This document shows, in pieces, positions 4,922 through 18,900 of a stretch of DNA of 64,000 bases; within the stretch, counting starts at the first letter, position 1; each line of letters begins with the position of its first letter. The notes under the pieces were generated by a model, which worked only from the letters and a program-made list of their open reading frames with translations, had not been told where the DNA came from and made no database searches. Made by a program: the position numbers and the translations under genes. This DNA comes from Pedobacter montanisoli. GTDB taxonomy: Bacteria > Bacteroidota > Bacteroidia > Sphingobacteriales > Sphingobacteriaceae. The DNA lies in the NCBI RefSeq assembly GCF_022809115.1, contig NZ_JALGBH010000001.1, forward strand, positions 1,178,001 through 1,242,000, read 5' to 3'.

Positions 4922-5977
4922 ATGCATAACAGGAAATTAAAGGTTACAGCGGTAGAACAGCAGGTTAATGAAACGATAAAAATCACATTTGAAACGACAG
5001 ATGGTAAACCGTTTAGTTATAGTGCCGGACAGTTTTTAACCTTGGTATTTAATGTAAATAATAGGGAGTTGAGACGGTCTTATTCTTTTTGTAGTTCTCC
5101 TCATGTTGCCGAACCTCTGGCTATAGCTGTTAAATTGGTAGAGAATGGTGAAATTTCCAGATTTTTGCATCATCAGATAGCTGTGGGCGATGTTGTAGAA
5201 GCAACAGAACCCAATGGTCAGTTTATTTATGAAATCAATGCAGAAATAAAACGTACAGTTTTTCTGTTTGCCGCAGGTGTAGGTATCACGCCTTTGTTCT
5301 CTATCTTAAAATCGGCGCTTACAGCAGAAACGCACAGTGAGGTTGTACTTATTTTTAGTAACAGAACAGCCGAAGATGTGCTTTTTAAAGACGAGCTTGA
5401 CGCTTGGAAAGAAAGATATGCTGAAAGACTGACTCTGATTTATTTGTTCAGCAGTTCAAAAAACTTAATGCGGGCACGGTTAAATAGCTTCTTAATTGGC
5501 CAGTTGGTACATGAAAATATACATTTCGATGCTAAAGATGCACTTTTCTATACCTGCGGACCGGTAGATTATATGGATATGTGCAGAATTAAGCTTTTAG
5601 GCCTGGGTTATGCGCCTGTACAAATTAAAAGAGAGACCTTTGTTTTACCCGAAGATGAACAAGATGAAGATGATACCACTGAAAAGCTGGTAGATAAAAA
5701 TACCTATACTGTTAATTTGATTTTTCGAGGAAGTCAGTACCGTTTAGCGGTTCCTTATCCTAAGCGCATTCTGGATGTGGCATTAGAAAATAAAATAAAA
5801 CTGCCTTACAGTTGCAGCGGAGGTGTATGCAGTACCTGTGCAGCTACCTGTATAAAAGGAGATGTTCGTATGGATTATAACGAAGTGCTTACTGACGAAG
5901 AAATTGCCGAGGGCAGGGTTTTGGTTTGTACCGGACATCCTACACAAAACGATACGACCATAACCTGGGATGCATAA
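4922..5977 (+). CDS. Ferredoxin-NADP reductase-type flavoprotein with C-terminal 2Fe-2S domain (PaaE-like)
   Basis: 351 aa in three domains: FAD-binding barrel (~1-100, RRSYSFCSS), NAD(P)-binding domain (~105-235, GVGITPLFSIL and YTCGPVDYM), and a plant-type 2Fe-2S ferredoxin domain (~260-351) with ligands C298-x4-C303-x2-C306 and C336. This is the architecture of PaaE, HmpX-like and related oxygenase reductases, passing electrons from NAD(P)H to a partner oxygenase. No paa genes or other oxygenase subunits lie nearby, so the electron acceptor is unknown; stand-alone copies are usual in this phylum. Confidence 0.85.
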   Translation: MHNRKLKVTAVEQQVNETIKITFETTDGKPFSYSAGQFLTLVFNVNNRELRRSYSFCSSPHVAEPLAIAVKLVENGEISRFLHHQIAVGDVVEATEPNGQFIYEINAEIKRTVFLFAAGVGITPLFSILKSALTAETHSEVVLIFSNRTAEDVLFKDELDAWKERYAERLTLIYLFSSSKNLMRARLNSFLIGQLVHENIHFDAKDALFYTCGPVDYMDMCRIKLLGLGYAPVQIKRETFVLPEDEQDEDDTTEKLVDKNTYTVNLIFRGSQYRLAVPYPKRILDVALENKIKLPYSCSGGVCSTCAATCIKGDVRMDYNEVLTDEEIAEGRVLVCTGHPTQNDTTITWDA

Positions 5978-6036
5978 TCTGATCCATCTCGTTTCTTAAG
6001 TATTAAAAATCAGGTATTTGTTTTTTGAAATAATGC

Positions 6037-6067
6037 TTGATAAAGTAAAATTTTATTTTCTACTTTG
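6037..6067 (+). promoter_or_regulatory. Probable promoter of the threonine operon leader
   Basis: TTG at 6037-6039 and TACTTTG at 6061-6067, spacing 21 bp; close to but one base short of the TAnnTTTG consensus. It would start the transcript just ahead of the leader ORF at 6095. Confidence 0.45.
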
Positions 6068-6094
6068 CGGTGTACACAATACACTTACAGCAAA

Positions 6095-6157
6095 ATGCAA
6101 TTTAACACTTCAATTATTACAACAATTATTACCACCGGAATTTTTTCTGGGGGATAG
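6095..6157 (+). CDS. thrL: Threonine operon leader peptide (Thr/Ile-rich, 20 aa)
   Basis: A 20-codon ORF from ATG 6095 to TAG 6155-6157. Five of its residues are Thr and five are Ile, arranged TSIITTIITTGI, so 10 of 12 codons in the block at residues 5-16 are the two amino acids made from the downstream pathway (Thr directly, Ile from Thr). That bias, its position between promoter and thrA, and the terminator 40 bases later identify it as an attenuator leader peptide like E. coli ThrL. It is too short to be called by ordinary gene finders. Confidence 0.88.
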   Translation: MQFNTSIITTIITTGIFSGG

Positions 6158-6194
6158 CCTGTTGTTATAATCTGAAGAACATATAAACACAGAA

Positions 6195-6225
6195 AGCGCC
6201 CCCAAATTTTGGGGGCGCTTTTTTT
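6195..6225 (+). terminator. Attenuator terminator of the thr operon
   Basis: AGCGCCCCCAAA / TTTTGGGGGCGCT hairpin (nine GC-rich pairs at the base) followed directly by seven T, ending 23 bases before the thrA start. The GGGGG at 6149-6153, inside the last codons of the leader peptide, is complementary to the CCCCC at 6199-6203 and could form an alternative, antiterminating pairing when the ribosome stalls upstream. The pairing scheme is inference. Confidence 0.88.
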
Positions 6226-6247
6226 ATTTAACCATATCCTAAAAACG

Positions 6248-8695
6248 ATGAAAGTACTGAAATTCGGCGGCACATCCGTAGGTTCGGCCGAGAACATTAA
6301 AACACTTTTAAAACTTGTATTACAAGAAAAACAGAACGAAAACCCGGTAGTTGTATTATCGGCAATGAGTGGTGTAACCAATATGCTTACCGAAATGGCC
6401 GAAATGGCCGAACGGGGCGAGCCTTTTGCTGCACAACTTAAACAAATTGAAAACAAACATTTTGAGGTAATCAGGACGTTATTGCCTGCAGCAGATCAAA
6501 ATCCGGTTTTTACAAAGATCAAGATATTTTTGAATGAACTGGAAGATGTTTTACAGGCCGTTTCTTCATTAAAAGAACTAAGCCTGCAAACTAAAGACCT
6601 GATCTTGAGCTATGGCGAGAAATGCGCTACTTTTATGGTTAGTCATATTGCTAGGCAGTATATTGATAATCCCTTGTATGTTTTTGGAGCAGATTACATT
6701 AAAACTGATCACAATTTTGGTAATGCCAAAGTCGATACTGTTTTAACAGATCTCTTAATCAAAGATTTTTACCATTCAAATCAAGATAAAGTACTTTTTG
6801 TAACCGGCTTTATCGCCAGTAATACAGAAAATAAAGTAACCACTTTGGGTAGAGGCGGCTCAGATTATACTGCTGCAATATGGGGTTCGGCATTAGATGC
6901 AGAAGAAATACAAATATGGACAGATGTAAACGGCATGATGACCGCAGATCCCCGTATGGTAAAGAAAGCTTTTTCATTGGAGGAGTTAAGCTATACTGAA
7001 GCGATGGAACTGAGCTATTTCGGAGCCAAAGTCATTTATCCGCCTACCATGCTGCCTGCATTTCTTAAGAAAATACCTTTGGTTATCAAAAACACTTTTC
7101 AGCCCGATTTTAAAGGTACTTATATTAGAAGCGATGTAAAACCCTCTGTTATGCCTATTAAAGGTATATCTTCTATAGATCAGATCAGCATCATCAATTT
7201 ATCAGGAGGTGGAATGGTAGGAAAAGCAGGTTTTAGCGGGCGCTTGTTTTCCCTGCTATCCCGAGAACAGATCAACGTGGTATTGATTACCCAATCATCA
7301 TCAGAACATAGTATCACTTTTGCTGTAAAACCATCAGATGTAGAAACAGCTATCAAATTGATCGAGAAAGAATTTGAACTGGAACTCAATGCACAAAAAT
7401 TAAGTCGGCCAGAAGTAGAACATAACCTTGCCGTTTTAGCAGTGGTTGGAGAAAATATGAAACATACTCCCGGGATGAGTGGCAGGCTTTTTCATGCATT
7501 AGGCAGAAATGGTATTAATGTAAGAGCTATAGCGCAGGGATCTTCAGAATACAATATTTCGGTTATTATCGGGAAAGATGATTTATCAAAAGCGGTAAAT
7601 GCTGTTCACGATGCTTTTTTTACTGATCTTAAACGTACGTTGAACATCTTTTGCTTAGGAACAGGAAACATAGGGAAAACCCTTTTTACTCAGTTAAAAG
7701 AGCAGATGCCATTTTTAGCAAAGAATAATGATTTGCAAGTAAGGGTTACAGGTATAGGCAATACCCGGAAAATGATTTTTAATGCCGAGGGCTTAGATCT
7801 GAGTGCTTGGGAAACTGAATTGAACGAGCATGGCGAACAGGCGGAGTTGAAACAATTCATTGACCAGATGATAGCTATGAATTTACCAAACTGCGTTTTT
7901 GTGGATAATACCGCCAGCGAGGCACCTGTAACTTTTTACCAGCATATCTTTCAAAATACGATTTCTATAGTAACCTGTAACAAGAAAGGCAACTCAGCGG
8001 CCTATGCGCAATATAAATCATTTAAAGATGCAGCCCGTAAACATGGTGTAGATTTTTATTACGAAACCAATGTAGGTGCGGGATTACCTATCATACGCAC
8101 TTTAAAAGATTTGATGATGAGTGGCGATAAGATTACCAGGATAGAAGCAATTTTGTCGGGAACGATCTCTTACATCTTTAACAATTTTAAAGATGATGCC
8201 GGATTTTATGAAACTGTTAAACAGGCACAGGATTTAGGTTATACAGAACCCGATCCGCGTGATGATCTGAATGGTAAAGACTTTATGCGCAAGATGCTTA
8301 TTCTGGCTCGTGATGCGGGTCACAATCTCGAGGCAGATGATGTAAAGATTGATAATATTTTGCCTGATTCATGTTTGCAGGCTCCAACAGTAGAAGCTTT
8401 TTATCAGGAACTGGAGCGCAATGCCGCTTATTTTGAAACACTTAAAAATAAAGCAAAAGACCAAAATAAGGTATTACGCTACATCGGTAAACTGGAAGAT
8501 GGAAAAGCTGAAATCAGCTTACAGATGGTAGATGAAAATCATCCTTTTTATATGCTTTCGGGTAGTGATAATATTATCTCATTTACCACAGATCGCTATA
8601 TGAACAGACCAATGGTGGTAAAGGGACCGGGAGCGGGAGCTGAAGTAACTGCAGCTGGTGTTTTTGCTGATATCATTAACGTGGGGAGAGCATAA
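6248..8695 (+). CDS. thrA: Bifunctional aspartokinase / homoserine dehydrogenase
   Basis: 815 aa from ATG 6248; the in-frame ATG at 6209 lies within the attenuator hairpin and is rejected. Catalyses the first and third steps from aspartate to threonine. Order: aspartokinase (~1-290, starts KVLKFGGTSVG, GRGGSDYTAA), tandem ACT regulatory domains (~305-460, SSEHSITFAV and AIAQGSSEYNIS) that normally bind threonine, then homoserine dehydrogenase (~465-815, FCLGTGNIGKT nucleotide-binding, GAGLPIIRTL, YTEPDPRDDLNGKD). Length equals E. coli ThrA (820). First gene of thrABC, controlled by the upstream leader and terminator and probably also by allosteric Thr. Confidence 0.95.
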   Translation: MKVLKFGGTSVGSAENIKTLLKLVLQEKQNENPVVVLSAMSGVTNMLTEMAEMAERGEPFAAQLKQIENKHFEVIRTLLPAADQNPVFTKIKIFLNELEDVLQAVSSLKELSLQTKDLILSYGEKCATFMVSHIARQYIDNPLYVFGADYIKTDHNFGNAKVDTVLTDLLIKDFYHSNQDKVLFVTGFIASNTENKVTTLGRGGSDYTAAIWGSALDAEEIQIWTDVNGMMTADPRMVKKAFSLEELSYTEAMELSYFGAKVIYPPTMLPAFLKKIPLVIKNTFQPDFKGTYIRSDVKPSVMPIKGISSIDQISIINLSGGGMVGKAGFSGRLFSLLSREQINVVLITQSSSEHSITFAVKPSDVETAIKLIEKEFELELNAQKLSRPEVEHNLAVLAVVGENMKHTPGMSGRLFHALGRNGINVRAIAQGSSEYNISVIIGKDDLSKAVNAVHDAFFTDLKRTLNIFCLGTGNIGKTLFTQLKEQMPFLAKNNDLQVRVTGIGNTRKMIFNAEGLDLSAWETELNEHGEQAELKQFIDQMIAMNLPNCVFVDNTASEAPVTFYQHIFQNTISIVTCNKKGNSAAYAQYKSFKDAARKHGVDFYYETNVGAGLPIIRTLKDLMMSGDKITRIEAILSGTISYIFNNFKDDAGFYETVKQAQDLGYTEPDPRDDLNGKDFMRKMLILARDAGHNLEADDVKIDNILPDSCLQAPTVEAFYQELERNAAYFETLKNKAKDQNKVLRYIGKLEDGKAEISLQMVDENHPFYMLSGSDNIISFTTDRYMNRPMVVKGPGAGAEVTAAGVFADIINVGRA

Positions 8696-8696
8696 C

Positions 8697-9629
8697 ATGA
8701 AAAAGCAGATTAAAGTATTTGCTCCCGCTACTGTAGCCAATGTGGTATGCGGTTTTGATGTGTTGGGTTTTGCCGTAAATGAACCTGGAGATGAAGTAGA
8801 AATGACTTTAACAGATCAACCGGGAGTTAAAATTGTACAGATAACAGGTGATAATGGAAAACTCCCTTTGGAAAGTCATAAAAATACAGTAAGTGTATCT
8901 GTACAGCATTATCTGAAACACATCAACAGAGAAGATGTGGGTGTAGAAATCACTTTACATAAGAAAATGCCTATAGGTAGTGGACTAGGTTCAAGTTCGG
9001 CAAGCACAGTTGCAGGTCTTTTTGCCATTAACCAATTAATGGGTAGTCGATTAACAGCAAAAGAATTGATTCCATTTGCTATGAAGGGTGAAGAACTGGC
9101 TTGTGGTTATGGTCATGCAGATAATGTAGCTCCTGCTCTAATGGGAGGCTTTGTACTGATTAGAAGCTATGATCCTTTGGATATTATATCTCTGCCAGTA
9201 CCAACCAATTTACATGCAGCTATCGTTTATCCCGAAGTTGATGTGCCTACCAAAGATGCCCGGCAAATGATCCGTACAAAAATTCAGTTGAAAGATGCGG
9301 TTACACAATGGGGCAATGTTGCAGGTCTGGTAAGTGGGTTGTTTTTAGATGATCTGGATTTAGTGGGACGTAGTATGAAAGATGTGTTGGTAGAACCTTT
9401 TCGTTCTATTCTGATACCGGGTTTTGAAGAATTGAGAAATATAGCCATAGAAAACGGAGCAGTAGGATTTGGCATATCGGGTTCAGGGCCGTCGGTTTTT
9501 GCATTGACCAAAGATTCTCTTACTGCCAGGAAAATAACCGATTTACAGCAGGCGCATCTTACAAAAATGAAAATCAACAGTTCTGCTTTTGTATCAGCCG
9601 TAAATACTGAAGGGCCTAAGCTATTGTAA
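8697..9629 (+). CDS. thrB: Homoserine kinase
   Basis: 310 aa from ATG 8697, one base after the thrA stop, hence translationally close to it; the longer frame from 8658 overlaps thrA and gives an unsupported N-terminus. GHMP kinase: the phosphate loop PIGSGLGSSSAS at about residues 90-101 and GISGSGPSVFAL near the C-terminus are both intact. Phosphorylates homoserine to O-phosphohomoserine for ThrC. Middle gene of the operon. Confidence 0.95.
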   Translation: MKKQIKVFAPATVANVVCGFDVLGFAVNEPGDEVEMTLTDQPGVKIVQITGDNGKLPLESHKNTVSVSVQHYLKHINREDVGVEITLHKKMPIGSGLGSSSASTVAGLFAINQLMGSRLTAKELIPFAMKGEELACGYGHADNVAPALMGGFVLIRSYDPLDIISLPVPTNLHAAIVYPEVDVPTKDARQMIRTKIQLKDAVTQWGNVAGLVSGLFLDDLDLVGRSMKDVLVEPFRSILIPGFEELRNIAIENGAVGFGISGSGPSVFALTKDSLTARKITDLQQAHLTKMKINSSAFVSAVNTEGPKLL

Positions 9630-9670: not shown

Positions 9671-10978
9671 ATGGAATTCTATTCAACCCAAAATAAAAAC
9701 CTTCGCGTATCCTTTAAGGATGCTGTTTTTAACAGTATGCCTTTAGATAAAGGATTGTATATGCCTGAGTCTATTCCCCGGTTAAGCAGTCGATTTATTG
9801 ACCAGATAGAAAAATACAATTTGCCGGAAATTGCTTTTGAAGTGGCTTCTGCCTTATTGCAAAACGAAATACCTTCCGAAACGTTAAGAAAGCTTATAGA
9901 AGATGCTGTAAATTTTGAAGCACCCGTGGTAAAGCTCGATAATTCTACTTACGTGCTAGAATTATTTCATGGTCCTTCTTTAGCTTTTAAAGATTTTGGA
10001 GCGCGTTTTATGAGCAGGGTAATGAGCTACTTTTTGCAGGCAGACGAACCTTTGCTAGATGTATTGGTGGCTACATCTGGTGATACCGGAGGAGCAGTGG
10101 CTTTAGGTTTTTTAGGTGTGCCGAATACGCGGGTTACTATTCTTTATCCTAAAGGAAAGGTTAGCCCAATACAAGAACTGCAGTTAACCACAAATGGGCA
10201 AAATATAAGAGCAATAGAAATTGAAGGTACTTTTGATGATTGTCAGGCATTGGTTAAACAGGCTTTTGCAGATGAAGAATTGAACCTTAAATTACGCTTA
10301 ACTTCTGCTAACTCCATTAATATTGCCCGTTTAATACCGCAAACTTTTTATTATTTCAATGCTTATGCTCAACTTAAACGCAAAGGTGTTGAACAAGTAA
10401 CTTTTGCTGTACCGAGCGGTAATTTCGGGAATATAGGTGCTGGCCTGCTGGCTTATAGGATGGGCTTACCTGTAAAGCAGTTTATTGCTGCGACTAATGT
10501 AAACGATACGGTTCCCCGTTATTTGGAATCGGGGATTTACCAAACCAAACCATCTGTGCCTACTTATGCAAACGCTATGGATGTAGGTGCACCCAGCAAC
10601 TGGGTACGCATTATGGATTTGTTTCATAATGATATGGAAGCCGTAAAAACGATGATCAAAGCTTATCGTTTTACCGATGAAGAAACCTTAAATGGTATGA
10701 AAGCGATTTTTGATAAATATAATTACATCGCTTGTCCGCATACAGCCATTGCATATCTGGCAACCGAAAGGTATAAAAGTGAAAATAAGACAAATGATGA
10801 AACAACGGTATTTTTGTCAACTGCGCATCCTTGTAAATTTCCTGAAGTGTTTCCTGTAGAAATGGCTGCTAAGATAGAAGTTCCGGCTCAGGTTAGGGAT
10901 TTGATGCACAAGCCTAAGCAATCTGAGCAATTGGCAGCTGATTTTAATGTGTTTAAGGCTTACTTGATGCAATTTTAA
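9671..10978 (+). CDS. thrC: Threonine synthase
   Basis: 435 aa PLP enzyme converting O-phosphohomoserine to threonine. The PLP lysine is K107 in SLAFKDFGARF; the phosphate-binding SGDTGGA and the SGNFGNIGAG loop follow. Shorter type of threonine synthase as in Proteobacteria/Bacteroidota. Begins 41 bp after thrB and is the last gene of the operon; transcription would end in the repeat-containing hairpin at 10981-11099. Confidence 0.95.
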   Translation: MEFYSTQNKNLRVSFKDAVFNSMPLDKGLYMPESIPRLSSRFIDQIEKYNLPEIAFEVASALLQNEIPSETLRKLIEDAVNFEAPVVKLDNSTYVLELFHGPSLAFKDFGARFMSRVMSYFLQADEPLLDVLVATSGDTGGAVALGFLGVPNTRVTILYPKGKVSPIQELQLTTNGQNIRAIEIEGTFDDCQALVKQAFADEELNLKLRLTSANSINIARLIPQTFYYFNAYAQLKRKGVEQVTFAVPSGNFGNIGAGLLAYRMGLPVKQFIAATNVNDTVPRYLESGIYQTKPSVPTYANAMDVGAPSNWVRIMDLFHNDMEAVKTMIKAYRFTDEETLNGMKAIFDKYNYIACPHTAIAYLATERYKSENKTNDETTVFLSTAHPCKFPEVFPVEMAAKIEVPAQVRDLMHKPKQSEQLAADFNVFKAYLMQF

Positions 10979-18693: not shown

Positions 18694-18803
18694 TTCTTAA
18701 GATAGGAGAGATGAAGAGAAAGATGCGTTGACTTAACGGTTTATCTTTAACTCAAATCTATAAAAGGCTTATCTAAAAGATGGTACGTGATCGTAATCCT
18801 AAA

Positions 18804-18900
18804 CTTATCTTTCCCCGGTTACGGGTAGAATGTAGCACCTTGTTAGCACAGGTTGCTAAGACATCGTAGGGTCTAATCCCTCCGCCTTTCTTAATAAGCA
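18804..18900 (-). promoter_or_regulatory. SAM-I (S-box) riboswitch upstream of metH
   Basis: Read on the minus strand from about 18898 to 18804: CTTATTAAGAAAGGCGGAGG, GAUUAGACCC, GAUGUCUUAGCAACC, AAGGUGCUACAUUCU and finally GGGGAAAGATAAG. These are the S-box consensus blocks in order (P1 5' strand with the GGMGGA-type block, ...GCAACC, AAGGUGCUA, P1 3' strand). CTTAT and ATAAG close P1. The 110-bp stretch from 18694 to 18803 before metH has no clear GC-rich hairpin with a T-run; a second AGATAAG at 18769-18775 could compete with the P1 3' strand. Whether control is by termination or translation is therefore unclear. Confidence 0.88.

Follow-up and report, generated by a model that had tools for sequence, protein, structure and literature searches.

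The thrABC operon of Pedobacter montanisoli is preceded by a region that is, with a probability of about 0.88, a canonical ribosome-mediated transcription attenuator, in which four segments form three competing hairpins. This reading is built on the anatomy of the region, its conservation, the specificity of the 1:2 and 2:3 pairings and a ribosome-compatible spacing, all established by computation. In the window, which designates the whole stretch of 64,000 nucleotides analysed, the three genes lie on the plus strand and are assigned by NCBIfam equivalog matches that pass their cut-offs, namely thrA (bifunctional aspartate kinase/homoserine dehydrogenase I, 6248-8695; 1034.9 versus 726 bits), thrB (homoserine kinase, 8697-9629; 384.5 versus 194 bits) and thrC (threonine synthase, 9671-10978; 293.8 versus 167.1 bits). 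Ahead of them, on the same strand, a leader ORF of 20 codons (6095-6157), translated as MQFNTSIITTIITTGIFSGG and closed by the stop codon at 6155-6157, contains five Thr and five Ile codons. Its codons Gly19-Gly20 hold the sequence GGGGG (6149-6153), and CCCCC follows at 6199-6203. Three defining features of the attenuator class are found here: a leader ORF with regulatory codons, a terminator before the first gene and, as a prediction, mutually exclusive 1:2 and 2:3 hairpins.

Promoters of Bacteroidota have a consensus made of -33 and -7 elements. A probable promoter on the plus strand (6037-6067) combines TTG at 6037-6039 with TACTTTG at 6061-6067, with a spacing of 21 nt, and many relatives have a TACTTTA/TACTTTG-like element that is equally far from the leader ATG. 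Comparison of related sequences also revealed a palindrome, GTGTA-N5-TACAC, just 5' of the leader (6070-6084, plus strand). It is placed after the promoter and ahead of the leader in 29 of the 32 loci L004-L035 and is not retained as such in other genera, where a different small hairpin is sometimes seen at that place.

According to the proposed mechanism, a sufficient supply of charged Thr (and Ile) tRNA would allow the ribosome to reach the leader stop codon (6155-6157) and to cover segment 2, and the 3:4 terminator would form. When Thr is scarce, the ribosome would stall on the Thr/Ile run and occupy segment 1; segment 2 would then pair with segment 3 through its GGGGG:CCCCC core, segment 4 would stay single-stranded and RNA polymerase would enter thrA. 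In a transcript whose leader is left untranslated, the 1:2 hairpin would form and lead to termination. We infer accordingly a translated leader, coupled transcription and translation, a working terminator and a response to Thr/Ile.

The three hairpins, all on the plus strand, were delineated by folding. The 3:4 intrinsic terminator (6191-6225, -25.4 kcal/mol, U-tract at 6219-6225) was also retrieved by a terminator scan, whose match at 6191-6223 comprises 15 pairs, 8 of them G-C, and then T. The 1:2 hairpin (6108-6177, -24.7 kcal/mol), also supported by a partner-swap test (see below), joins segment 1, which corresponds to the Thr/Ile codons, to segment 2, which consists of the end of the leader and the sequence after the stop codon and includes GGGGG. 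The 2:3 antiterminator hairpin (6148-6204, -16.0 kcal/mol), for which comparisons of pairing speak as well, links 6148-6153 with 6199-6204 and 6157-6158 with 6196-6197, so that GGGGG:CCCCC is the core of a longer pairing. As a whole, the 156-nt leader region folds with a z-score of -8.96, and none of 200 shuffles folds equally well.

Folding was also carried out with a masking ribosome. Without a ribosome, the 1:2 hairpin forms with GGGGG bound to the Thr codons, and the terminator then follows. With the ribosome stalled at Thr10 or Thr14 and the end of the transcript at 6204-6212, the 2:3 antiterminator is obtained, and with the ribosome on the stop codon neither 1:2 nor 2:3 is obtained, and nothing keeps the terminator from folding. 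The earlier note had proposed that a stalled ribosome frees GGGGG and that a ribosome on the stop codon covers it, and these modelled states agree with that proposal. A stall at Ile16 covers GGGGG and results in termination in the model. Once the transcript is free to 6216, the terminator is the more stable structure at equilibrium in every state, including that with a stalled ribosome, and therefore antitermination must be kinetic. The start of segment 2 lies at a median distance of 13.5 nt past the last Thr codon (quartiles 12-15; 14 in the window), that is, just beyond the edge of the ribosome if this edge is placed, as was assumed for the comparison, 12 nt after the start of the A site.

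Sequence changes on the two sides of the 2:3 pairing go together. The end of the leader and the 5' arm of the terminator read GGGGC:GTCCC, GGGAC:GTCCC or GGGGC:GCCCC in Pedobacter-type relatives, ATCGGGAGC:GCTCCCGAT in L030 and GGAGGAAGG:CCTTCCTCC in many other genera. The mean energy of the 2:3 duplexes amounts to -15.7 kcal/mol for own arms versus -12.6 kcal/mol when they are crossed with the arms of other sequences, and to -9.4 kcal/mol (sd 3.0) with a shuffled segment 2; for the 38 leaders of the CTTCC type, the values are -17.2 with arms of their own type versus -9.9 to -10.7 with other types. A partner-swap test with 10000 permutations was conducted on 31 representatives of clusters at 80% identity. 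Own partners reached -16.53 versus -13.45 (sd 0.48) for swapped ones in 1:2, and -16.99 versus -15.26 (sd 0.37) in 2:3, and for both pairings the own value was attained in 0/10000 permutations. The median rank of the own partner among the 31 is 8 for 1:2 and 12 for 2:3, many segments pairing equally well or better elsewhere, because arms are shared among representatives. Covariation between 6149-6153 and 6199-6203, which the earlier note had asked for, is supported insofar as the arms change in step and own partners outperform swapped ones, but not by RNAalifold, which on the 70-sequence alignment described below recovers terminator pairs only and does not recover 1:2. Segment 2 is frequently a perfect GGAGG, which resembles a Shine-Dalgarno sequence; ribosomes of Bacteroidota are not known to use such a motif. 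Across 32 leaders with this form, it is found in frames 0, 1 and 2 in 16, 10 and 6 cases, respectively, and since all three leader frames are represented it would be the RNA, and not the peptide, that is under selection and conserved there.

These tests also bear on a simpler scheme, in which the position of the ribosome alone masks or frees GGGGG and 1:2 takes no part. The complementarity of GGGGG and CCCCC on which this scheme was founded stands, as the core of a 2:3 pairing in which own partners beat swapped ones, and so does the coverage of GGGGG by a ribosome on the stop codon. However, the claim of a two-state device that dispenses with a separate antiterminator hairpin finds no support, since GGGGG:CCCCC is itself that hairpin and competes with a 1:2 hairpin that is strong in the window and beats swapped partners in the 31 representatives (0/10000 permutations). 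On the strength of the fold, the swap test and the ribosome-masked folding, a scheme without 1:2 was rejected as improbable, and the four-segment attenuator is retained.

Of 201 genomes of the same family (Sphingobacteriaceae), own genome counted, 197 yielded a ThrA relative. Seventy family upstream regions were compared, namely that of the window, 29 from loci obtained by search and 40 chosen to span genera. This comparison, suggested beforehand as a check for conserved Thr/Ile leader codons, returned a Thr/Ile-rich leader ORF in 70/70 upstreams and a terminator detected by strict scan in 66/70; in the other four (L052, L057, L068 and L069), folding gives imperfect hairpins. A second set of named relatives, which overlaps the first in species, retained 77 of 80 loci after three with short upstreams were dropped. 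Its closest members belong to Pedobacter; the best of all, Pedobacter sp. UBA1951 (94% ThrA identity), has an upstream too short for use. A leader is present in 77/77 and is followed in order by a terminator in 75/77, two being without a strict terminator. Among 385 dinucleotide shuffles of this set, 51 contain a Thr/Ile-rich ORF, 3 a terminator and none both, and among the 77 reverse strands the corresponding numbers are 10, 51 and 0. A short Thr/Ile-rich ORF taken alone is weaker evidence, since 51/385 shuffles contain one; the ordered arrangement of leader and terminator before thrABC is, judged from sequence, strongly conserved. That a Thr/Ile leader and an intrinsic terminator precede thrABC had been stated at the outset with correct coordinates, and this part of the earlier note holds (75/77 relatives, 0/385 shuffles).

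The same data weigh on the idea that the hairpin merely terminates transcription from upstream, or a small RNA, and that the Thr/Ile ORF is there by chance. In its favour, the plus strand carries an intrinsic terminator about 215 nt past the stop codon of the upstream gene. Against it stand the observations that leader and terminator are conserved jointly and in order in 75/77 named relatives versus 0/385 shuffles, that the end of the leader and the terminator arm vary together, and that a promoter-like element separates the upstream gene from the leader. Joint conservation as compared with shuffles led to its rejection as highly improbable, and attenuation by the translated leader is again preferred.

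The thr switch of Pedobacter is an ordinary and well conserved one, much like the textbook case of E. coli. The E. coli thr attenuator, filed in Rfam as Thr_leader (RF00506), likewise has a Thr/Ile leader, three competing hairpins and a terminator before thrABC. The Thr_leader model aligns with 6099-6225 of the window over its whole length (model positions 1-118 of 118, 33.7 bits), and 17 of 20 relatives tested match at E <= 0.5 with 26.3-46.8 bits, the three without a match at this threshold being L058, L065 and L072. Formal membership was rejected, as the window (33.7 bits) and the 20 relatives (best 46.8) score below the 55 bits set as its gathering cut-off. The Thr_leader score alone is weak, since the window also has sub-threshold matches to Rfam families that are unrelated to it. 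The Pedobacter leader thus differs from Thr_leader in its sub-cut-off scores everywhere tested and in the phylum to which it belongs; in its predicted operation it works like that family, though it is not filed as a member. A thr attenuator is documented here across many genera of a phylum whose leaders score under the Rfam cut-off and are therefore missed by annotation with that library. If the predicted working is true, transcription and translation would be closely coupled in these bacteria.

By comparative genomics, Vitreschak et al. in 2004 reportedly proposed candidate attenuators that include threonine operons and some cases in Bacteroidetes/Chlorobi. A literature search, with most subscription journals outside its reach, found no paper describing the Pedobacter thr leader. 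A comparable case in Bacteroidota is Bacteroid-trp RNA (RF01692; PMC2864571), whose leader combines a stretch of regulatory codons with an intrinsic terminator; it differs by its Trp codons and trp genes, and it is absent among the Rfam matches obtained at E <= 5 in 5950-6350. For Flavobacterium psychrophilum, a study from 2021 reported strong indications of attenuation by leader peptides ahead of amino-acid operons, with the same proposed mechanism in the same phylum; as conserved 5' elements, the passages concerned name, among others, pheA and hisG, but not thrA (PMC9723704).

Outside the family, 74 upstreams were taken from 119 Bacteroidota genomes with a match. Among the first 60, a leader and a strict terminator in order occur in one, L108 (family f14); in L073 (f2), a CCTTCCTCC hairpin that lacks a good T-run stands behind a Met/Thr/Ile leader. 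In 26/74 upstreams (L074-L077, L084-L087, L089-L091, L094, L096-L102, L104, L117, L219-L221, L223 and L224), the end of a Thr leader is separated from thrA by 66-186 nt, and the strict scan detects no terminator behind this leader. A relaxed scan behind these 26 leaders found a terminator in 3/26 versus 90/1040 shuffles, which is no excess. A mini-hairpin overlaps the leader stop codon in 25/26 of them (20/21 and 5/5), versus 117/1200 random positions and 0/70 family leaders in the same test. The last Thr codon forms the base of its 5' arm, and its form is ACCCC-loop-GGGGT, or ACGGGG-TGA-CCCGT in family f8; it is spread over families f2, f3, f4, f8 and f21, and an alignment of the 26 stop-codon hairpins misplaces four f8 sequences. 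Behind the mini-hairpin, ACATATAAT or ACATATCAT is often found, and a CATAT-type motif follows the leader in 18/26 cases (13 and 5), a count made without a chance control. An Rfam search of 20 upstreams of this terminator-less type gave no leader-type match. Three further candidate thr leaders were discarded: two of L110, L116 and L124 reach to within 4 nt of the thrA start or past it, and one is far upstream and without a hairpin. The odds seem even that thrA in Bacteroidota is served by two leader designs, a canonical terminator attenuator of the Sphingobacteriaceae type and, in several other families, a terminator-less threonine-sensing leader, perhaps Rho- or translation-based. These terminator-less leaders may be the more interesting by-product of the analysis, and comparing them with the contrasting family attenuator would allow a switch of mechanism at one and the same gene to be tested.

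The genome of P. montanisoli apparently has ilv and trp attenuators as well. A covariance model of the thr leader, R1, yielded a second full-length match (E 1.3e-7) at C2:236020-236156 on the minus strand (L234), where an Ile-rich leader and a terminator precede an ORF of 493 amino acids that, by its look, we take to be ilvD. As R1 contains 12 base pairs only, those of the terminator, it is mainly sequence and terminator that support this match, which was checked by eye. The third full-length match (L237) showed no convincing leader and was rejected. At C2:153130-153255 (L217), a leader of the Bacteroid-trp type, MRTLMLNTNWWWHNNFC followed by a stop codon and containing WWW, is accompanied by a terminator and scores 47.6 bits versus a cut-off of 49. 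Two other RNA elements were encountered, a sub-threshold Flavo-1 RNA match upstream of the thr leader of L042 (271-347, 31.5 bits versus a cut-off of 42) and a SAM riboswitch on the minus strand of the window (18802-18900, 64.8 bits).
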